In this document: positions 1 to 15,263 of the stretch, one piece after another
How positions within the stretch are numbered: position 1 is the first letter of the stretch
How the letters are laid out: the number at the start of each line of letters is the position of its first letter
DNA from: Sulfurovum sp.
Lineage (GTDB): Bacteria > Campylobacterota > Campylobacteria > Campylobacterales > Sulfurovaceae
Assembly: GCA_020525365.1 (NCBI GenBank)
Contig: JAIZOF010000001.1
Location: forward strand, 216,381 to 280,380
Reading direction: 5' to 3'
Length of the DNA stretch: 64,000 nucleotides
Notes under the pieces: generated by a model
What the model saw: only the letters and a program-made list of their open reading frames with translations
Databases searched by the model: none
What the model was told of the DNA's origin: nothing
Made by a program: the position numbers and the translations under genes

Positions 1-1643
<1,643 letters not shown>

Positions 1644-1659
1644 TTAAGTTAATTTTATG

Positions 1660-1920
1660 TTATGCAATGACACCAAGTACATCGGAAACTTCAAGTACCA
1701 AGTACTCTTTGTTGTCAAGTATTAACTCTGTTCCAGCATACTTACCAAATACGACAACATCTTTAACTTTGATATCTTCAACATCATTTCCAACTGCTAG
1801 TACATTACCTCTAGATGGCTTCTCCTTAGCATTGTCTGGGATGATGATGCCACTAGCTGTAGTGTTTGCTTCTTCAACTCTTTCTATAAGAAGTCTTTTA
1901 CTGAGTGGTTTAAAGTTCAT
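1660..1920 (-). CDS. groES: Co-chaperonin GroES
   Basis: Ten-kDa heptameric lid of the GroEL chamber. The 86-residue length is normal for a short GroES. It begins with the family signature ([17 protein letters not shown]), followed by the mobile loop (roughly residues 20-30, containing SGIIIPD) and the conserved [20 protein letters not shown] segment. A strong ribosome binding site (GGAGG) sits 6 bases before the ATG. First gene of groESL; the upstream region carries a 7-bp inverted repeat that may be an operator. A broken copy lies at 4143-4397. Confidence 0.96.
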
Positions 1921-1993
1921 CTGATACCTCCGGTATGTTTAATTGATTTTTGTATGGGGATTCTACAATATTTTTTTAAAAATGTCAATAAAA

Positions 1994-2012
1994 TTTAGTC
2001 AAATAGACTAAA
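1994..2012. promoter_or_regulatory. Inverted repeat upstream of groES, possible heat-shock operator
   Basis: TTTAGTC, a 5-base spacer, then GACTAAA: a perfect 7-bp inverted repeat about 75 bases upstream of the groES start. It does not match the CIRCE consensus of HrcA (TTAGCACTC-N9-GAGTGCTAA) or the HspR HAIR consensus well. An operator role is inferred from its position only. Confidence 0.35.
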
Positions 2013-2183
2013 ACTTCCTACAAATTTTTTTACACCTTTTAAGTATTTACTGTAGTATTAATGAAAAAATAAAAACGGATTGTATCTTTTTTCGTTGACT
2101 AAAAAGTAATCAAAAAGTGTTATGCCAAGCATTTTAACCCCTTTTTAAGTAAGAATAAACTAAAATCTCGACCTCTCAAGAAT

Positions 2184-2260
2184 GTCAAGGTAGCTCAGCT
2201 GGTTAGAGCGCTGGTCTCATAAGCCGGAGGTCGAGGGTTCAAGTCCCTCTCTTGACACCA
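2184..2260 (+). tRNA. tRNA-Met (anticodon CAT)
   Basis: A 77-base cloverleaf: acceptor GTCAAGG paired with TCTTGAC, a D arm beginning GCTCAGCTGG, an anticodon loop CTCATAA, a T arm GGGTTCAAGTCCC, and an encoded CCA end. The anticodon is CAT. Sequence alone does not exclude the lysidine-modified tRNA-Ile2, but elongator methionine is the simpler call. A mutated copy lies at 4659-4735. Confidence 0.9.
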
Positions 2261-2331
2261 CTCCTTTAACTATATTTTTTAAATTTTACTATGAATTTAA
2301 CATAAAAAATCCATTCTGAGCAACCACAATT

Positions 2332-3591
2332 ATGATTGATCTCAAATATCTTCAGAACCATTTTGATGAAGCTTAGCTACAAAATTACAAGAAAAAGGGT
2401 GTTGATGCGCAGACATACAAGGTGCTTAAAACACTTTTTGCACAACTTAAAGAGGCTAACGCAACACTTGAGGCACTCAAGGCAGAACAGAACAGTATGT
2501 CTAAGCTTTGGGCGAGTATAAGCGTGAGGGTAAGGCATTGTTGAACTTAAAGCAAAAGTTGAGGTCACCAATAAAGAGGCAATGATACCATTGCAGGAAG
2601 GCAAGAAGAAGCAGAGGTTGCATTGTATGAGTAGCGCTGGCAATTCAAATCTTCGATGACTCTGTACAGAGGGTGCCAGTGAAGATGATAATATTGAACT
2701 TCGTAAAGTGCTTGAGCCACGTAGTTTGATTTACTGAACCATTGGAACACTGGGCATTGGCAGAAAAAAATGGATGGATTGACTTTGAGCGTGGAGTCAA
2801 GTTGGCAAAGAGAGTCGTTTCTCTATTTTGCGTGGTGAGGCGGCAAGGCTTGAGAGAGAGCACCAGTAATTTCTTTCTTGATGTCAATAGGGAAAAAGTT
2901 TGAAGAGATATGTGTGCCGTTTATGAATAGCACAGATGCTTCAAGGCACAGGACAATTACCAAGTTTGAGGATGATCTTTTCAAGATTTTGTGATGAGGA
3001 CCTTTGAGGATTCCTACAGCAGAGGTGCCATTGACCAATATGTACAATGATGAAATCTTTAAAGAGAAGTGAATTACCTGTGCTAATGACAGGCCTATAC
3101 CATGTTTTAGAAAAGAAGCTTGGGGAGTGCAGGGCGTGATACTCGTGGAATGATAAGACAACACCAATTTGATAAAGTAAGAGATGTAGTTTGCTATTTC
3201 ACACCCCGATAAAAGTGATAAAATTTTTGAAATGATGGTACAGAATGCATCAGATATTTTGACTGCATTAAGGTTGCCACACAGTTTGTAGCGTTATGCG
3301 GTGGGGATCTTGGCTTCTCTGCGGCAAAGACCATTGATCTTGAGGTGTATGGCTACCAGGGCAGAACAAGTATCGTGAGATCAGTTCAATCCTCAAATAC
3401 CCATGATTTTTCCAGGCAAGACAGCGCAAAGATACGATTTAAAGATGACAAAGAAATCGACTAGTACATACATTGAACGGTTCTGCCTGCACTAGCAGTT
3501 GGTATTACACCTGATTGCACCATTATGGAGAATTATCAGAATGCAGATGGATCAGATTGAGATACCAGAGGTTTTGAAGAGATATATGTAA
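2332..3591 (+). pseudogene. Frameshifted copy of serS (probable sequence artefact)
   Basis: Matches the intact serS at 4810-6054 from start codon to stop codon but contains many 1-3 base insertions and deletions, for example extra bases near 2381 and a shortened T run near 2507, so no frame stays open. The surrounding spacer matches as well. A true gene decaying this fast should not keep long exact stretches between indels, so low-quality sequence is the likelier explanation. It should not be counted as a second seryl-tRNA synthetase gene. Confidence 0.85.
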
Positions 3592-3697
3592 TAGAAACCA
3601 AGGCTACCTCTATTGTTTACACTGTCTGTGATGAATCCTTTAGCGTGATTTTGGTTTTCCTTCCATGCTTAAGTAGCTGTTGAGTGCACCAATGTAG
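3592..3697 (-). pseudogene. Fragment of the leuA 3' end (damaged copy)
   Basis: Corresponds to the serS-leuA spacer and the last codons of leuA at 6058-6167, with several small deletions. It stops abruptly at 3697, where sequence switches in mid-gene to groEL (matching 1214 onward). Part of the near-duplicate described at 1214-6167. Confidence 0.8.
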
Positions 3698-4096
3698 TAA
3701 TCTTTTTAAGCTCATCAATAATAGTGCATTAGAGGCCTTGTCCATTCCTCTTTTAACTTCAATGGGGTTGGCACCTCTGTGTATTTCTAAGCCCCTCTTT
3801 GAAAATGGAGTGTGCCAGTACAGTAGCAGTAGTGGTACCATCACCTGCCTCATCGGCAGTATTGCTTGCCACTTCTTTGACTAACTGGAGCACCCATATT
3901 TTCAAGTGTATCATCAAGTTCAATCTCTCTTGCAACGGAGACTTACCATCTTTGTGTGGGCGCACCAAAACTCTTTGGATGAGTACATTACGTCCCCTCG
4001 GTCCCATAGTAACCTTTACGGCATCTGCCAGTTTTAGTTTACACCTTCAAACAGTCCATTTCTTGCGTTATCTGAAAAGGTGAATCTCTTTTGCCA
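3698..4096 (-). pseudogene. Damaged copy of the groEL 5' third
   Basis: Matches groEL from codon 1 to about codon 133 (clean copy 1214-1613) with scattered indels that break the frame, for example the TTAC insertion in the segment near 3942. It begins in mid-gene at the junction with the leuA fragment. Same artefact block as the damaged serS copy. Confidence 0.82.
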
Positions 4097-4142
4097 TTTT
4101 TCTACTCCTTGTATTCTTTTAGTATATTAAGTTAATTTTATG

Positions 4143-4397
4143 TTATGCAATGACACGGTACATCGGAAACTTCAAGTACCAAGTACTCTTTGTTGTCAAG
4201 TATTAACTCTGTTCAGCATACTTACCAAATACGACGCATCTTTAACTTTGATATCTTCAACATCATTTCCAACTGCTAGTACATTACCCCTAGATGGCTT
4301 CTCCTTGGCATTGTCTGGGATGATGATGCCACTAGCCTGTAATTTGCTTCTTCAACTCTTTCTATAAGAAGTCTTTTACTGAGTGGTTTAAAGTTCG
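4143..4397 (-). pseudogene. Damaged copy of groES
   Basis: Matches groES at 1660-1920, but the start codon is altered (the CAT of the clean copy reads CGC here) and internal bases are lost, for example near 4215 and 4235. The upstream spacer, including the TTTAGTC/GACTAAA inverted repeat, is also copied, with local corruption near 4497-4510. Confidence 0.82.
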
Positions 4398-4658
4398 CTG
4401 ATTACCTCCGGTATGTTTAATTGATTTTTGTATGGGGATTCACACAATATTTTTTAAAATGTCAATGAAAATTTAGTCAAATAGACTAAAACTTCCCACC
4501 TGGGGGTACACACCTTTTAGGTATTTACTGTAGTATTAATGAAAAATAAAACGGATTGTATCTTTTTTCGTTGACTAAAACAATCCAAAAGTGTTATGCC
4601 AACCATTTTAACCCCTTTTTAAGTAAGAATAAACTAAAATCTCGACCTCTCAAAGAAT

Positions 4659-4735
4659 GTCAAGGTAGCTCAGCTGGTTAGAGCGCTGGTCTCTCATAAG
4701 CCGAGGTCGGGGTTCAAGTCCCTCTCTTGACACCA
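4659..4735 (+). pseudogene. Damaged copy of tRNA-Met
   Basis: Same sequence as the tRNA at 2184-2260, but with two extra bases in the anticodon loop (CTCTCATAA) and bases missing from the variable/T-arm region, so it cannot fold normally. That even a tRNA carries the same indel pattern as the neighbouring genes argues for sequence error rather than gene decay. Confidence 0.8.
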
Positions 4736-4809
4736 CTCCTTTAACTATATTTTTTTAAATTTTTACTATAATTCCATAACATAAAAATCCATTCTAGGCA
4801 ACCACAATT

Positions 4810-6054
4810 ATGATTGATCTCAAATATCTTCAGAACCATTTTGATGAAGCAGCTACAAAATTACAGAAAAAGGGTGTTGATGCGCAGACACTTAAGGTGC
4901 TTAAAACACTTTTTGCACAACTTAAAGAGGCTAACGCAACACTTGAAGCACTCAAGGCAGAGCAGAACAGTATGTCTAAGCTTTTTGGGCAGTATAAGCG
5001 TGAGGGTAAAGATATTGTTGAACTTAAAGCAAAAGTTGATGCCAATAAAGAGACAATGATACCATTGCAGGAGAAGGCAAGAGAAGCAGAGGTTGCATTG
5101 TATGAAGTGGCACTGGCAATTCCAAATCTTCCTGATGACTCTGTACCAGAGGGTGCCAGTGAAGATGATAATATTGAACTTCGTAAAGTACTTGAGCCAC
5201 GTAGTTTTGATTTTGAACCATTGGAACACTGGGCATTGGCAGAAAAAAATGGATGGATTGACTTTGAGCGTGGAGTCAAGTTGGCAAAGAGTCGTTTCTC
5301 TATTTTGCGTGGTGAGGCGGCAAGGCTTGAGAGAGCACTTATTAATTTCTTTCTTGATGTCAATAGGGAAAAAGGATTTGAAGAGATATGTGTGCCGTTT
5401 ATGAATAACGCACAGATGCTTCAAGGCACAGGACAATTACCCAAGTTTGAGGATGATCTTTTCAAGATTTGTGATGAGGACCTTTATTTGATTCCTACAG
5501 CAGAGGTGCCATTGACCAATATGTACAATGATGAAATCTTACAAGAGAGTGAATTACCTGTGCTAATGACAGGCTATACACCATGTTTTAGAAAAGAAGC
5601 AGGGAGTGCAGGGCGTGATACTCGTGGAATGATAAGACAACACCAATTTGATAAAGTAGAGATGGTTGCTATTTCACACCCCGATAAAAGTGATAAAATT
5701 TTTGAAATGATGGTACAGAATGCATCAGATATTTTGACTGCATTAAGGTTGCCACACAGGGTTGTAGCGTTATGCGGTGGGGATCTTGGCTTCTCTGCGG
5801 CAAAGACCATTGATCTTGAGGTGTGGCTACCAGGGCAGAACAAGTATCGTGAGATCAGTTCAATCTCAAATACCCATGATTTTCAGGCAAGACGCGCAAA
5901 GATACGATTTAAAGATGACAAGAAGAATCGACTAGTACATACATTGAACGGTTCTGCACTAGCAGTTGGCCGTACACTGATTGCCATTATGGAGAATTAT
6001 CAGAATGCAGATGGATCAATTGAGATACCAGAGGTTTTGAAGAGATATATGTAA
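4810..6054 (+). CDS. serS: Seryl-tRNA synthetase
   Basis: Class II aminoacyl-tRNA synthetase charging tRNA-Ser (and tRNA-Sec where present). At 414 residues it has the normal length. An N-terminal helical hairpin rich in Lys, Glu and Ala (about residues 25-100) is the coiled coil that grips the tRNA long variable arm. Motif 2 ([15 protein letters not shown]) is near residues 259-273 and motif 3 ([16 protein letters not shown]) near 383-398. It converges on leuA across a short spacer that can fold into a terminator. Clean copy; compare the damaged one at 2332-3591. Confidence 0.97.
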
Positions 6055-6086
6055 TAGAGGAAACCAGAAGGGCTACCTCTATTGTT
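6055..6086. terminator. Likely bidirectional terminator between serS and leuA
   Basis: TAGAGG (6055-6060) pairs with CCTCTA (6076-6081), with a further CC/GG pair inside. T-rich sequence follows on the plus side and A-rich codons on the minus side. The two genes converge here with about 30 bases between their stop codons. Confidence 0.55.
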
Positions 6087-7642
6087 TACACTGTCTGTGA
6101 TGAATCGCTATGGCGTGATTTTAGTTTTCCTTCCATGCTTAAGTAGCTGTTGAGTGCACCAATGTAGGCTCTTGCAGAGGCAAGCATGGTATCAAGATGT
6201 AGTCCATGCCCAATGATGGCAGGTTCGTCTTCAAAGGAGACTTTGACGGTAACATTGGCAAGGGCATCTTTTCCTTCTGAGACTGATTTGACACTGTAAC
6301 CTTCAAGGTTTCCATTGTAGCCAGTAATACGGTCAATCGTTTTGAAGACAGCATCAATGGTTCCCCCGCCAATACCGGCATCCATAATTTTTTTACCTTC
6401 TTTTACAATGCATACAGCTGCACTTGGTACCCCTTTAGAACAATCCATCAACTGAAGTGATACTATCTCATAGACTTGTGTGGCTTTGGTCATTTCATTG
6501 GTGACGAGTGCCCTGATGTCATCATCATAAATCTCCTTTTTTTGATCAGCAAGTATCTTAAAGCGTTCAAAAGAGGTGTTGAGTGCTTTATCATCAAGAC
6601 TGAAGCCCAGTTTCTTCAATTTATCTTTAAATGCAGCACGTCCAGAGTGCTTGCCTAGTACCAGTGTATCATTCTTGCTCAAGCCAATATCTTCAGGACA
6701 GATAATTTCATAAGTCTCCTTATGTTTGAGTACACCATCTTGGTGTATGCCACTTTCATGTGCAAAAGCATTTTTACCAACAATGGCTTTGTTGGGTTGT
6801 GGCTCAATACCAGTGATGGTGGCAATGAGCCTGCTAGTAGGGTAGATCTCTTTAGCATTGATGTTAGTGTCGTATCCATTGAAAATATCACTCCTCACTT
6901 TAAGTGCCATGACAATCTCCTCAAGTGCTGCATTTCCAGCACGCTCTCCCAACCCATTAATGGTACACTCAACTTGTCTAGCACCATTAACAACTGCTTC
7001 AAGTGAGTTAGCAACACCAAGACCAAGATCGTTGTGGTTGTGTACAGAAATAATGGCACGCCCTTTGACATACTCACTCATCTCTTTAACCATTGCCCCA
7101 ATTTCAGAGGGGAGCTTAAAGCCCACAGTATCTGGTAGATTAATGGTGGTTGCACCTGCTGTAATGACTGCATCACTAATCTCTTTCATGAAACCAATAT
7201 CGGATCGTCCTGCATCTTCACAACTAAACTCCACATCTTTAACAAAAGTACGCGCATAGGAGACAGCTTCTACTGCACGTTTGATGACCTCTTCAGGCTT
7301 CATCTTTAACTTGTGTTCCATATGAATGGAGCTGGTAGCAATAAAAGTATGAATACGCTGATGTTTTGCTTTGGCAATCGCTTCACCAGCTGCTTTAATA
7401 TCTCTCTCTAGAGCACGGGCAAGTGAACAGACAGTGGAGCTGATGATGCGTTGGGAAATTTTATCAATGGCATCGAAATCACCAGGGCTTGCTGCAGCAA
7501 ATCCTGCTTCAATGATGTCAACCCCTAGACGCTCTAGCTGTATGGCAATTTGGATCTTCTCTTCGGTATTCATGGATGCACCAGGACTTTGCTCGCCGTC
7601 CCTTAATGTGGTGTCAAATATTTTGATAGTCTCTTTGTTCAT
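6086..7642 (-). CDS. leuA: 2-isopropylmalate synthase
   Basis: First committed step of leucine biosynthesis: condenses acetyl-CoA with 2-oxoisovalerate. 518 residues, the usual length of the long bacterial LeuA. The N-terminal TIM-barrel catalytic domain starts with [11 protein letters not shown] (residues 11-21) and carries the HNHNDLGLG metal/substrate motif near residue 200. The C-terminal third is the LeuA dimer/allosteric domain, with a typical [10 protein letters not shown] segment, implying leucine feedback inhibition. The upstream 230 bases hold a leucine-rich leader peptide and a terminator, so transcription is probably attenuated by leucine as well. A short damaged duplicate of its 3' end is at 3592-3697. 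Confidence 0.96.
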
Positions 7643-7720: not shown

Positions 7721-7760
7721 AGAAAAATTGTCTAATTTTACCCAAATTCGGGTAATTAGA
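7721..7760 (-). terminator. Attenuator-type intrinsic terminator in the leuA leader
   Basis: On the minus strand TCTAATTACCC pairs with GGGTAA plus TTAGA across a six-base loop (an 11-bp stem with a two-base bulge, 7731-7760), followed directly by an AATTTTT tract (7721-7730). It starts about 25 bases after the leader peptide stop and lies about 80 bases before the leuA start, where an attenuator should be. Confidence 0.7.
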
Positions 7761-7784
7761 AACTAAAGATGGGTTATAGAAAGA

Positions 7785-7853
7785 CTAAAGAGATAGGAGC
7801 AGAAGTGTACTGTCTTGTTTGAAGATGGTTGTTTGGTTAATAATTTGTTTCAT
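7785..7853 (-). CDS. Leucine-rich leader peptide of leuA (leuL-like)
   Basis: A 22-codon ORF between a strong promoter and leuA. An AAAGGAG ribosome binding site (7861-7867) stands 7 bases before the ATG. The peptide ends in LLLLSL, using the codons CTT, CTG, CTC, CTA, TCT and CTT just before TAG: five leucines in its last six residues. Ribosome stalling on this run when leucyl-tRNA is scarce would prevent formation of the terminator downstream. The arrangement matches classical amino-acid attenuation; the function is inferred from layout. The peptide itself should have no other role. Confidence 0.75.
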   Translation of the reverse strand: MKQIINQTTIFKQDSTLLLLSL

Positions 7854-7880
7854 CGGTACACTCCTTTATGATTTGAATGG

Positions 7881-7909
7881 AGTATACATGTTTTTAATAT
7901 TTTTGTCAA
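7881..7909 (-). promoter_or_regulatory. Sigma70-type promoter of the leuA leader
   Basis: On the minus strand TTGACA (7904-7909) is followed 17 bases later by TATACT (7881-7886). This is the best -35/-10 match in the window; most promoters here show only a -10 box. A start near 7874 gives a leader of about 230 bases before leuA. Confidence 0.7.
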
Positions 7910-7948: not shown

Positions 7949-9559
7949 TTACTTTTTTGGAGATTTTAATAATGTTGTAAATGAGTCTTGAGATGATGGA
8001 TTAGAGCAAAGATTTAAACTTTGGTGTTGCGTTTGACCATCTGATACAATTTGACTACAGCCTAAAATAGTATGAAATAGATAGTCATGTGTTATGTTGG
8101 CATCTAAACCTTTTGTTTGAACGAAATACTGAAGATTTTTTGCCTCGGCATAGTGCAAATAGGTGTCTGACATCCAGACAATAAAAGGTACTTTAAACTG
8201 TTCTTTGGGAGCACTGTTTTTAGGGTAGCCATGAAAATAAAACCCATTTTCCCCTAATGATTCTCCATGGTCAGAAATATAAAATAAGATAGCATTTTTA
8301 TCTTGGAGCTTATTGATAATAGAAAATAGAAATTTATCTATTGCCACAATAGTATTATCATACGTATTGATGAGTATTTTTTGTGAACATCTTTTAACAT
8401 CTTGATAGGTACAAATAGGTTTAAATTTAATATCATCAGTGTCAAGTCTATCTATATAGCTCTGATGAGAACCAAGTGTATGTAAAATGATTAACATTTT
8501 ACCCTCTTTGTAGTTTTGTAATGTATGATGCAAGTATGGCAAAAGTGCCTTGTCTCTTGTTCCAAAATTTTGTTCATTGATAACTGCATATTTAGAAACA
8601 AGTGTATCGTAGCCCAAAAACCGATAAAATGAACTCAATGTTTGCAGGGAATAGATATGAACATTAAATCCAAGTCTTTGCATAATTGTGACAAAAGACT
8701 CTTCTTGTACCTGGGCTAGTTGTGTGTCACACTGTAAAGGAGTGAACATATATGCCAAAGATCGTATTGTTAAAGTATCACAAGATGTAACATTTTTAAA
8801 ACTATATAGATGGGGAATTGTCTTGAGATATTGATTGGTCTCTTTTTTATACCCATTGAGTGAAAAATGATCAGCACGAGAAGATTCTCCTACGACAACA
8901 ACTACGATGAGGTTATCATTTTTATTGTCTAAAATATAATTTTCAACTTGATTCGATTTTGCTTTCGTATAAGTTTTTTTCAATATTTTTAAAGATTTTA
9001 CTGCTTTTTTGTATGCAACAATAAGGTCAATTGGTGAAGCCGCACTGATTGCCTTAATGGCAGTAAAGTCTCTAATTTGTCCTGGTTTTCGATATTTGTA
9101 TCCTTGAAAATAAGCAACAGTAGACAAAAGAATCACAACAGTGATTGCACAATATAGAGCAGTTCTTTTTTTATATTTTTTAATTTGAATTAAAATGATG
9201 ATTATCAAAGGGATAATGGCTGTTAAAAAGACCCAAACCAAAAAACTGATTGAAATAATTTCTTGTGTGAGAGAAAAATCATTAATAAGCCCACTAAGGA
9301 GAATATCCTCTGTAATTACAATATTATATTTCCATTTAAAAAAGATACTCCCACTCGCTAGCATTATCAAAATAACAGCTAAACTTTTTAAGAGTACTTG
9401 ATGCAAAATGGCACCTATGGATAACAAAAGAGGTATCAAAAGCAAGGGAGCAATAGATAAGTAGATTGCTTCAAAATGATGATTAGCAAATAGGTTAAGT
9501 AAAAAGATATAAAAGCTAACAGTGGCAATAAAATATTCGAGTTTAAGCGATAGCTTCAT
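7949..9559 (-). CDS. Phosphoethanolamine transferase, EptA/sulfatase family
   Basis: Inner-membrane enzyme that moves phosphoethanolamine from phosphatidylethanolamine to lipid A or another surface glycan. 536 residues. The N-terminal part has about five membrane segments (residues 8-165), then a periplasmic alkaline-phosphatase-fold domain with GESSRADHFSLNGY (224-237), the expected Thr nucleophile region (SCDT, Thr262) and a late DHGESLGENGFYFHG metal motif. This closely follows the EptA/PmrC pattern, which in other bacteria lowers sensitivity to cationic peptides; the acceptor here is unknown. It stands alone, downstream of ftsH on the same strand with an inverted repeat between them. Confidence 0.88.
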   Translation of the reverse strand: MKLSLKLEYFIATVSFYIFLLNLFANHHFEAIYLSIAPLLLIPLLLSIGAILHQVLLKSLAVILIMLASGSIFFKWKYNIVITEDILLSGLINDFSLTQEIISISFLVWVFLTAIIPLIIIILIQIKKYKKRTALYCAITVVILLSTVAYFQGYKYRKPGQIRDFTAIKAISAASPIDLIVAYKKAVKSLKILKKTYTKAKSNQVENYILDNKNDNLIVVVVVGESSRADHFSLNGYKKETNQYLKTIPHLYSFKNVTSCDTLTIRSLAYMFTPLQCDTQLAQVQEESFVTIMQRLGFNVHIYSLQTLSSFYRFLGYDTLVSKYAVINEQNFGTRDKALLPYLHHTLQNYKEGKMLIILHTLGSHQSYIDRLDTDDIKFKPICTYQDVKRCSQKILINTYDNTIVAIDKFLFSIINKLQDKNAILFYISDHGESLGENGFYFHGYPKNSAPKEQFKVPFIVWMSDTYLHYAEAKNLQYFVQTKGLDANITHDYLFHTILGCSQIVSDGQTQHQSLNLCSNPSSQDSFTTLLKSPKK

Positions 9560-11712: not shown

Positions 11713-11713
11713 T

Positions 11714-12061
11714 GCCACTCCAACAAGGCACAACTACTTCAGGTCTTAAGGGAAGAGTATATTCATTGGTGATGCTGCACTTCAATACTATCTTGGGGAA
11801 AGGGCACCATCTAGCAGAGGCTTCAGGCTGCAAAACTGTCTACTATTTGTTCTTGCAGGCCTCTGTTACAACCAAGAAAGTACCTATATTAATAAACTAG
11901 CACAGGCTTTTGCTGCCAAAAAGGTGCGTACCCACAATATATCCTAAAAAAGAGGCACAAAGAGAGCTCATTACCTCTAACGAAACTACACTGGTATCTA
12001 GACATATTCTATTATAAAATGGATTGGAAGGCAAGAAGTTTGAAAATTCCAATGTCGTTAA
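11714..12061 (+). pseudogene. Damaged copy of the mqnA 3' half
   Basis: Matches the C-terminal half of mqnA (clean copy 16940-17310, opposite strand), from the codons for ATSNKLAQLLG to the stop, with missing and extra bases throughout, for example a GGGGGG run shortened near 11793. It begins in mid-gene directly after the prmA fragment. Confidence 0.82.
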
Positions 12062-12113
12062 CATTCTGCAGCTAATAATAGATAAAAATAGTAAAATAAG
12101 GTTACATCTAACT

Positions 12114-13469
12114 TTATCTTGTTTGCAAAAATGCTTCAATACGCTTAATTGTTGTGATCAACCCCAAGTATTACATATCATTCATCAACCCTGCACCTGT
12201 TAGTACAACAAGTGCTACACGAAGCGGCATACCAATCTTTCCCAAAACCAATATCTTTCTTAGTTACAATCGACTCAAGCACTTCATGATAATCACTTGC
12301 ACAGTGGTTTTTGCCATGTTTGAAGTGCATTGTCATAAAGTCTGTTAATACTTCTTGTCCCTTCCTTGAAAGCTTTAACTGCCTTAGAGTCATACCTGTT
12401 GGTGCATTCAAAATCAACTTAATCTGCTCTGCCAACTCGACCAATGTTCCTGCTTCGCTCTTTGGTCGCATGTAAAATGATAGAGGTATTTTTATTGTCC
12501 CTAGGTCTACTCCAAACTCTTGAGCAAACTTTATGTTCATTCGATGCCTTTGATATAATGTGCGTTAAGCCACAAGAGCTATCGAGATTATAGTTTGAGG
12601 CAGATTTATTAATATTTTGAGGGTCGTGTTGTATCATCTCCTCCAAAGAGAAGATCTCCGATCACCATGGCTCCACCTTAGATCGTACTAAAAAATTAAG
12701 GAGTGCTTCTGCAAGAAACCTGTATTTTATACTCCATCACATCAGTTGCACCATCACGTTTGGAGAGTTTTTCCTTGCTCGTTGTTAATCATTGCCACAT
12801 GATAAAAACTGAGGAAGTCAAAACCCAATGCATTATACACCACAATCTGCTTAGGCGTATTATAGAGATGGTCGTCACCACGGGATTACGTCGTCAAACC
12901 CATCAATGCATCATCAATGGCGACAACGAAATTATATGAACGGTGCGCCGTCTGCACGAGCAATAATGAAATCACTCCACCTCCAGCAGCGGACAATATC
13001 TCCTTGACTCCATCGTCGTGCCAATCATGCCCCTGCGGTGCTTCTTAATACGGATGACTGGTTAACTCCCTGTGGAGGCGTGTACCACTAAATCACGATA
13101 GCGACCCATCATAATGGGACGTTCTGCGTGCTGTCTAAGTTGCGAAGTGCACTCAAGTTCCCTTGGTCATATAACACTTGTAGGCTTTATTCTCTTTAAG
13201 AAGCTGGATCAATATACTTTATAAAGGTCAAACGCTTTCTTGACCCTGATAGACCACTTCACCGTCATAGCTCAACCCTGCCCACTAAATGCCTTAATAA
13301 TTGCTTCAAGTGCCTCTTTGGAGTTTCGAGAAAGATTCGCATCTTCACGCGAAGTAAAAATTTTCCATTGTTGTGTCTAGCAGTCAACCAAGAAAAAAGT
13401 GCTGTTCTCAGTCCACCAATATGTAGATACCCTTGTGGAGTAAGGAGCAAAACGTGTTACCGTCGACAT
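12114..13469 (-). pseudogene. Damaged full-length copy of gltX
   Basis: Matches the intact gltX at 15489-16877 from start to stop in opposite orientation, but is broken by many small indels. Several short open frames inside it encode pieces of glutamyl-tRNA synthetase. Not a second gltX paralogue: between indels the sequence is essentially identical to the clean gene, including third codon positions. Confidence 0.83.
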
Positions 13470-13697
13470 AAATTAACCTAATTTTTTCGCAAAGTAATTA
13501 TACCATGAGGAGTAGCTAAGAGGGAGAGGGTGGCTGTGCAGGTTTTGTCGGACTAGGCGGTACAAAACCTTAAAATAATTAGATATAATCACAACACAAC
13601 AGAACAAGAGGCATGCAGTAACGTGAGCATAGACAAAAAGAAAACATTGTCAAGCAATGCATGCTGGTATACTACTAACTACCCAAAAGGCATTTTA

Positions 13698-14280
13698 ATG
13701 ATAGGTATCGTCGACTATAGTATGGGCAACCTGCTCTGTCATTAATGCTTTTTGGTGTGCGGGTACCAAAGGTACTAGAGAGGACCCAGAGAAGCTTCTT
13801 GCACTATGACAGACTCGTCCTTCCAGGTGTTGGTGCATTTGGTGATGCTATGATGATTTAAAGAAGCGGATGGATGAAGGGTCAAAGCCTTTGCTGCTTC
13901 CAGGAAACCATTACTAGGTATCTGTTTCAGTGGTAACTTCTTTGAAAGTAGCAAGAGTTTGTTTCACTAGCTATCTAGGGGCTCATCCCTGGGAAAGTGG
14001 ATTGCATTTGACGAAAGCAGATTTGATCACCCTCAAAAAGTATTCTCATGGTTGAATGAACTATTTGTACAAAAACAGCACAAAACCATTTGATGGCTCA
14101 ATCACAGTTTGATTCCTATTTTGTCCACTCATTCCATCATGATGATACGTACACCATAGGTAAACCATGGTTACGAGCTTTGTAGCTGTCAACAAAGAGA
14201 ACATCTACGGTATATACAACCCCACCCAGAGAAGAGTCACAAACGGGTTGAAGATTATAGGAGACTCTTGCAATCTATAA
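13698..14280 (+). pseudogene. Damaged but full-length copy of hisH
   Basis: Covers all of hisH including the C-terminal part absent from the clean copy. Pieces reading DDTYTIG, then YGYEFVAAVNKENIYGIQ and GLKIIGD can be made out across frameshifts before TAA at 14278-14280. It therefore supplies the true continuation of the truncated clean hisH. The His and Glu of the amidotransferase triad should lie in this C-terminal part. Confidence 0.8.
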
Positions 14281-14312: not shown

Positions 14313-14811
14313 ATGCAAGAAGAAGAAAAGACCATTTCATCAAAAATATAGAAATCGAAAACTTCAAATGTTTCAAAGAGTTCAAAGCAGAAGGTTTTTT
14401 GAGACTGGTCAATCTCATTGGTGGGAAGAATAATGGGAAGACGGCTTATGAGGCGTGTTATCTTACTACAAATATGCATCAAAATCACACAACATGTAGA
14501 TTTAAACATACTATGGGGTAATTGCGAATGAAAGAATGGATGTATTTTGAAATGATTTAAATTCTTATAATCATTCAAAGCAACAAACAGAGAACAAGTA
14601 GATTTTATTACAGAATGATGTTATTAGCTCAATTGACTACATATGATGATTGTGTGTATTAACTTTAAATGAAACTCAATAAAATAAATATGAGAGGTCT
14701 TGATTTAAATAACAGAATTTAAAATATCTTCAGTGGTATCATATTATGACATAACATCTATTCATGATTTCAAAATAAATACTTTTATAAAATTTTTAAA
14801 AATAATCCCTC
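14313..14811 (+). pseudogene. Damaged 5' part of an AAA family ATPase gene (AAA_15/OLD-like)
   Basis: After ATG at 14313 and a frameshift, one frame reads KNIEIENFKCFKEFKAEGF, then VNLIGGKNNGKTA: the N-terminal strand plus Walker A of the AAA_15/RecF-like ATPase group, normally GGKNNVGKTAF, with a Val codon apparently lost. Further frameshifts follow, and the AT-rich stretch 14640-14811 is not readable. It starts 32 bases after hisH on the same strand, so in the real genome it probably lies downstream of hisH. It occurs only in the noisy segment; the complete gene is not in the window. Confidence 0.6.
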
Positions 14812-15263
14812 AATGAGTGGACAAAATAGAGATAAAACTCTTGATTGAGCCCATCAAATAGTTTTGTGCTGTTTTGTACAAATAGTTCATTCCAGCCCAT
14901 ATGAGGTACTTTTTGAGGGTGATCAAATCTGCTCTCGTCAAATGCAATCACTTTCCCAGGGATGAGCCCTAGTCCTTCGTGGCTCCCAAACTCTTCACTG
15001 CTTTCAAAAAGAAGTTGCATACCCAAACAGATACCTAGTAATGGTTTCCCTGAAGCAACAAAGGTTTTGACCGCTTCATCCATCCCACGCTTCTTTAAAT
15101 GCATCATAGCATCACCAAATGCACCAACACCTGGAAGGACGAGTCTGTCATAGTGCAGAAGCTTCTCTGGGTCACTCTCTAGTACTGCTTTGGTGCCCAC
15201 TTTTTTAAAAGCATTAATGACAGAGGCAAGGTTGCCCATACTATAGTCGACGATACCTATCAT
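14812..15263 (-). CDS. hisH: Imidazole glycerol phosphate synthase subunit HisH, 3' end missing
   Basis: Glutaminase subunit of the HisF-HisH enzyme, feeding ammonia into histidine and AICAR synthesis. About 151 correct codons, with the nucleophile Cys79 in GICLGMQLLF and the oxyanion-loop PGVGAFG. HisH is normally about 200 residues. Homology stops after YFVHS at 14812, where sequence switches to the damaged segment; the frame then runs a few foreign codons to a stop at 14796. The missing third is visible in damaged form at about 14118-14280. It is divergent from gltX. Truncation is most likely an assembly effect. Confidence 0.9.

Follow-up and report, generated by a model that had tools for sequence, protein, structure and literature searches.

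The leuA leader region

We analysed a 64,000-nucleotide stretch of a Sulfurovum sp. genome, hereafter the window, and focused our attention on the region upstream of leuA (6086..7642), in which all features described below lie on the minus strand. leuA encodes 2-isopropylmalate synthase (NCBIfam match, E 2e-230); it is the presumed regulated gene, stands as a single gene at the locus, and is convergent with serS. Furthest upstream is a candidate promoter, P1 (7881..7909), whose TTGACA (7909-7904) and TATACT (7886-7881) hexamers are 17 nt apart and match the consensus at 11 of 12 positions. P1 is the top-scoring of 11 promoter-like sites within 2 kb, and because ~8 such sites are expected there by chance, the promoter alone is weak evidence. 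A -10-like hexamer (at least five of six matches) is also found 10-45 nt 5' of the leader ORF at 61/61 same-genus loci.

P1 is followed by a Shine-Dalgarno (SD) sequence, AAAGGAG (7861..7867), which has SD-like counterparts in relatives, and by leuL, a leader ORF of 22 aa (MKQIINQTTIFKQDSTLLLLSL; 7785..7853, stop TAG at 7787-7785) identified from the ORF list, its presence in relatives, and its pN/pS ratio. The peptide ends in LLLLSL, encoded by CUU CUG CUC CUA UCU CUU (7788..7805), a run that is CUN-only in nearly all relatives. Between the leader and leuA, which are 142 nt apart, lies hairpin SL2 (7731..7760), composed of UCUAAUUACCC-GAAU-UUGGGUAAAAUUAGA and followed by CAAUUUUU. A T5 tract (7727-7723) comes after SL2 within the downstream CAATTTTT. 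The SL2 3' arm forms part of a 16-nt conserved element, GGTARAATTAGACAAT (7727..7742), which has one exact copy in the genome. Promoter, SD sequence, 22-codon LLLLSL ORF, hairpin with T5 tract, and leuA are thus all where the initial annotation had placed them, on the minus strand. Its description of the hairpin holds in part: the structure is present and starts 24 nt past the stop codon, but the stem is not an unbroken 11 bp; it has 12 bp (6+6), is interrupted by a 2-nt bulge, and folds at -10.6 kcal/mol. We regard SL2 as a candidate weak intrinsic terminator; a simple terminator scan of the window did not pick it up.

Directly upstream of leuA on the same strand is a gene for a phosphoethanolamine transferase (7949-9559), EptA-like and below curated cut-offs; in several sister families the upstream neighbour is phosphatidyltransferase-like instead (pssA-like, by eye). 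The window also contains two pairs of near-duplicate ~2.5 kb stretches, one direct (1213-3697 / 3697-6167, 93%; groEL/serS/leuA-end) and one inverted (11713-14133 / 17306-14812, 89%; gltX). Each pair has broken frames in one copy and a clean copy adjoining, which looks like a long-read assembly artefact, and the hisH frame (14796-15263, minus strand), truncated near the inverted duplicate, probably has the same cause. The leader lies outside both pairs.

Leader ORF, leucine codons, and pairing with the Shine-Dalgarno sequence

We searched 120 related genomes for LeuA and extracted the sequence 5' of leuA at ~98 loci. All 61 analysable same-genus loci carry, before leuA, a 22-24 aa ORF that has an SD sequence (of GGGG type at locus L034) and ends with a run of CUN Leu codons. 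A leader with C-terminal CUN Leu codons precedes leuA at 24 loci from other families as well, and the leader is retained in most other Campylobacterales families examined. In other families it lies 25-87 nt 5' of the gene, mostly without a terminator-like hairpin. This conservation across relatives rules out a chance ORF. The whole genome of the window organism holds one such leader ORF only. Twelve loci, spread over several families, have no leader; among leaderless loci (L077, L081, L087-L090, L092-L094), leuA lies close behind the upstream gene in several. The initial annotation had looked to an alignment of the region upstream of leuA for conservation of the ORF, of its Leu codons, and of the stem through compensatory changes, and all three are found in relatives. 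The leader matches none of the models in Rfam, Pfam, or NCBIfam; such leader ORFs are a common feature that these collections leave uncatalogued.

Leaders of this kind have been predicted before. LeuL was named in C. jejuni (Porcelli 2013; PMC3847290), where it has 28 aa with five rare Leu codons and gives a short RNA ending just past the stop codon, and LeuL orthologs were predicted in most Epsilonproteobacteria having leucine genes (PMC3847290). Ribosome footprints on C. jejuni LeuL in a 2025 Ribo-seq study support its translation (PMC11955535). Given this earlier prediction and the Ribo-seq support, the novelty for Campylobacterota implied by the initial annotation falls away, and the locus belongs to the LeuL group that had been predicted earlier; it is not the first case. 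Its likeness to that group consists of an ORF of 20-35 aa with an SD sequence directly upstream of leuA (22 aa and AAAGGAG in the window) and of a terminal Leu run (LLLLSL in the window; a Leu run in all same-genus leaders). While the Leu codons of C. jejuni LeuL are all rare, the window leader has CUU, the commonest Leu codon, twice. Our literature search found no paper testing the LeuL mechanism. In their available portions, the published LeuL reports deal with the leucines only and make no mention of an SD:Leu helix, a genus hairpin, or an LPKIEIKN motif (PMC3847290; PMC11955535). New here are the SD:Leu helix, the genus-specific hairpin whose 3' element is conserved, and, most of all, the peptide conserved in sister families.

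The leucine codons of the leaders are strongly restricted. CUN codons account for 435/462 leader Leu codons and UUA/UUG for 27/462, yet UUA and UUG make up 29% of Leu codons in the long ORFs of the window (CUU 37%, UUA 15%, CUC 15%, UUG 14%, CUA 13%, CUG 6%; some spurious ORFs included). In the genus, the first codon of the run is CUC at 50/61 loci and the second is CUG at 51/61; the window leader uses the uncommon CUG, CUA, and CUC, but also the commonest codon, CUU, twice. Among the tRNA genes found, a list possibly incomplete for long-arm tRNAs, are Leu-GAG, Leu-UAG, and Leu-CAA, but no Leu-CAG. Since CUN codons are read by tRNA-Leu GAG and UAG, the run alternates two CUN isoacceptors, not all leucyl-tRNAs. 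The proposal that the leader senses total leucyl-tRNA is therefore too broad: with all codons CUN and UUA/UUG avoided, only the CUN isoacceptors are covered.

The Leu codons also pair with the leader's own SD sequence. In both the minimum free energy (MFE) and centroid folds of the window, AGGAGUGUAC (7865-7856) is paired with GUACACUUCU (7810-7801), which spans Ser-Thr-Leu-Leu codons. The duplex between the window's own SD sequence and its own ORF has -14.5 kcal/mol, a value equalled by 0.25% of shuffled ORFs. Across the genus, the mean SD:Leu duplex of -12.4 kcal/mol compares with -10.6 (sd 0.2) when the order of the Leu codons is permuted (0/200 as low) and with -11.5 kcal/mol when SD sequences of other species are used (0/200). 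A thinned set of 26 loci with <75% identity gave -12.3 against -10.6 (permuted) and -11.0 (swapped SDs; 0/500 each), and 60 motif-bearing leaders from other families gave -10.65 against -9.9 and -9.6, respectively (0/300 each); relatedness among loci still somewhat inflates these permutation and swap tests. CAGGAG, the exact complement of CUCCUG, is frequent as leader SD in the genus and uncommon before other genes, for which start calls are noisy. Codon order and cross-species swaps thus indicate selection for pairing between the leader SD and the Leu codons, and the likely role of the helix would be to close the leader SD after the ribosome has passed. In the window, the SD helix is made by the Ser-Thr codons, and the synonymous choice among CUN codons adds little to it (37.5% of alternatives equally good).

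The downstream hairpin and the leader peptide of sister families

Most loci of the genus have a UCUAAU...AUUAGA hairpin between the leader stop and leuA. Its outer stem is paired in 99% of alignment cells, with three double-change cells that include ACUAAU/AUUAGU and GCUAAU/AUUAGC, and in a global alignment RNAalifold recovered the SL2 stem alone. In the genus, 45% of spacers have a terminator-like hairpin (<=-6 kcal/mol, followed by a T-rich stretch), compared to 11% of shuffles; in motif-bearing families (see below) the corresponding values are 8% and 3%, and no stable structure was seen there between leader and leuA (mean z +0.6). A T run of at least four follows SL2 at 29/57 genus loci and is short or missing in about half of relatives. 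Conservation is much stronger in the SL2 3' arm, GGTARAATTAGACAAT, than in the 5' arm with which it pairs; the 3' arm can also be read as an extended -10 (GGTAAAAT). We rejected GGTARAATTAGACAAT as an operator of a regulon, given that it has a single copy in the genome and that matches with two mismatches occur at control level; the variable spacing of the UCUAAU/AUUAGA repeats also argues against a protein operator.

A near-invariant motif, G..K.IK.LPKIEIKN.LL, is shared by the leaders of six Campylobacterales families that were sampled (including Sulfurospirillum, Nitratiruptor, and Campylobacter concisus). Twelve leaders from other families were taken by position before leuA, without use of the motif, and aligned on LPKIE afterwards. 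In these 12 leaders, the Leu run is preceded by 14 residues that resemble IKAIKFLPKIEIKN and show abundant synonymous changes, with a pN/pS of 0.18 compared to 1.18 and 1.08 in the shifted frames; this ratio and those that follow are indicative, pooled pairwise counts being non-independent and synonymous sites near saturation. For the window's genus, the nine codons leading up to the run gave 0.52 in frame and 1.73 and 2.17 in shifted frames.

A degenerate K.LPKIEI[KR]N pattern matched 74 stretches in the genome collection, of which 62 are small ORFs with leuA downstream, 60 of them at 25-87 nt before leuA and 2 at ~230 nt; the remaining matches are contig ends or chance matches elsewhere. The hosts are Campylobacterota, e.g., Sulfurospirillum cavolei, S. 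diekertiae, Nitratiruptor, Hydrogenimonas, Campylobacter concisus, and C. majalis, or loosely labelled MAGs. The motif is present in this set by selection of the pattern, whereas the flanks are free of that selection: Gly at -8 (60/61) and Lys at -5 (58/61) are nearly invariant, Leu-Leu stands at +9/+10 in 62/62 leaders while these differ in their total of Leu residues past the motif (2 to 6), and flank pN/pS is 0.41-0.42 versus 1.0-3.1 in shifted frames. A profile search of 200 genomes of the order returned 54 strong single-copy matches in six families and zero strong matches in the window's family; homology of the genus leader to the LPKIEIKN leader was not upheld, the profile comparison being not significant.

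Taken at the level of sequence, these patterns indicate that the peptide of motif-bearing families is under selection for its amino acids, at a fixed distance from the proposed stall site, and that the same holds, weakly, for the window's genus (0.52). Codon counting alone does not predict conservation of the motif; a nascent chain acting in the ribosome tunnel, or a peptide with a function of its own, would.

A proposed route from leucine supply to leuA transcription

We consider it likely that leuA is under the control of a LeuL-type leader peptide, which would operate as follows. A short RNA would start ~20 nt 5' of the leader ORF, and a ribosome translating LeuL would meet the CUN run at the end of the ORF, where its progress would be set by charged tRNA-Leu(GAG/UAG). 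With sufficient leucine, the ribosome would terminate and leave, the freed Leu codons would pair with the leader SD and block re-initiation, and RNA polymerase would tend to stop at or past SL2. When leucine is short, the ribosome would be held on the Leu run, the SD:Leu helix would stay open, and more transcripts would reach leuA. Comparison of relatives shows selection on the leader ORF and its codons, on the SD:Leu helix, and on SL2; from these features we infer the leucine response, termination at SL2, and a link between the stalled ribosome and termination.

Several observations count against this explanation. The modelled local pairing probability of the SL2 3' arm in the window is nearly equal with the ribosome on the first Leu codon (0.87) and at the stop (0.99), and the step from sensing to output would thus be unaccounted for. 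About half of relatives have a short T tract or none, and the synonymous CUN choice in the window contributes little to the SD helix.

From usual footprint sizes, the leading edge of the ribosome would lie near 7790 on the first Leu codon and at ~7773 at the stop; because SL2 starts at 7760, a stalled ribosome would have no direct reach to it. Folding the leader and searching it for a competing hairpin, as the initial annotation had proposed, predicted no antiterminator competing with SL2 in the window, whichever ribosome position was modelled. With no such competitor in the window, a T tract that is not conserved in the genus, and most other families without a terminator-like hairpin, the claim that the same mechanism acts here as in gammaproteobacteria is not sustained. 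Because an antiterminator was looked for and not found, the locus should not be classed with the classical attenuators: in this genome, the proposed coupling of a stalled ribosome to termination does not run through a textbook antiterminator, and LeuL would work like an attenuator leader without being a classical one.

A textbook attenuator, in which stalling on the Leu codons would let the segment after the stop pair with part of the terminator and keep its hairpin from forming, we judge unlikely. It draws on 9/54 relatives (e.g., L014, L020, and L037) in which SL2 loses >0.3 probability with the region after the Leu run free, the competitor being a post-stop UCUAAU or GUCUAAC that pairs with the SL2 3' arm. 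However, SL2 is dominant in the window and most relatives at every modelled ribosome position, a competitor that targets the late arm is kinetically unfavourable, and other families mostly have no terminator-like hairpin. These hairpinless lineages would also be accounted for by Rho-dependent attenuation with a tna-like output, whereby a stalled ribosome masks a C-rich, G-poor Rho loading region starting at the Leu codons and its departure allows Rho termination. Over the 45 nt past the stop, C outnumbers G in 100% of leaders from the genus and in 96% of the remaining leaders, and one 78-nt stretch of the window contains 22 C but 6 G, which places it in the top 1.1% of windows. Other intergenic spacers of the same genomes also have C > G, though, with 18-28% reaching leader values, and no conserved rut-like element was identified; the bias is suggestive in the window but not distinctive against other spacers as a Rho signature, and we regard this route as rather improbable, if a little less so than the textbook scheme. 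More doubtful still is that leuA is mainly transcribed from a second promoter at the extended -10 GGTAAAAT, with the leader bypassed. The much stronger conservation of GGTARAATTAGACAAT than of the 5' pairing arm fits such a promoter, as does the divergent locus L047, which keeps a GGTARAATTAGACAAT variant without the UCUAAU arm; but the compensatory changes in the outer stem and a hairpin re-formed in L012 and L027 point to RNA structure, there is no clear -35, and conservation extends well beyond a -10. Translational attenuation of the actinobacterial type, with the Leu codons pairing to the leuA SD, was rejected: in 62 motif-bearing leaders, this pairing was no better with the leader's own leuA SD than with that of other species, i.e., there is no selection for it.

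The remaining alternative concerns the sensor. Conserved residues of the nascent chain may act in the ribosome tunnel and assist an arrest at or just after Leu-Leu, in the manner of an arrest peptide. The low pN/pS of the motif and its flanks and the invariance of Leu-Leu at +9/+10 despite a variable total of Leu residues speak for such sensing, whereas the sequence of the window's genus (the TIFTKD region) differs, is less conserved, and does not match the motif leaders significantly by profile; conservation could also serve another purpose, e.g., a functional small peptide. We hold this reading to be possible, on balance doubtful. Extended to the phylum, and with similar reserve, it would make Campylobacterota LeuL a leucine-responsive arrest peptide: K.IK.LPKIEIKN, in six families and diverged in the window's genus, would halt the ribosome at the CUC-CUG Leu pair when leucyl-tRNA is low, and lineages would have kept the sensor while swapping the output device (terminator hairpin, Rho, or leuA translation). 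Were the peptide to participate in stalling, the codon-run and arrest-peptide classes of leaders would be joined.

The leader-peptide regulator that we favour departs from known systems in several respects. The usual description of attenuation combines codon counting with two competing hairpins; much of the order Campylobacterales keeps the sensor, whereas the terminator part varies or is weak or missing, and conservation of the leader peptide extends well beyond its leucines in several families. With the enterobacterial leu/ilv/his/trp attenuators, the locus shares a leader with a run of end-product codons, a downstream hairpin with a T tract, and a biosynthetic gene. In E. coli leuL, the Leu run is in the middle of the ORF, whereas in the window it stands at the extreme end; no antiterminator is predicted in the window, and the hairpin of relatives often lacks a T tract or is absent. 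The actinobacterial LEU element before leuA likewise has Leu codons that pair with an SD sequence, that of leuA (PMC1262725), while the partner here is the leader's own SD. Mycobacterial and actinobacterial Cys-run leaders have no clear terminator, and Rho has been suggested (PMC1262725); a regulatory codon run adjoining the stop and an unclear terminator are common to both, but amino acid and phylum differ, and one genus here has a conserved hairpin. The motif-bearing leaders resemble arrest-peptide leaders (TnaC, SpeFL, and Erm leaders) in having conserved residues at a fixed distance from the proposed stall codons, as judged by sequence, but differ in that a run of end-product codons is also present and in having no homology to a named family.

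At one further locus (L073, perhaps of the Campylobacter family), the last Leu codons and the stop (CTCCCTTAGGGGA) may form a small hairpin before ATATATTTTT. A stalled ribosome would therefore cover the terminator itself, an output device unlike that of the window.
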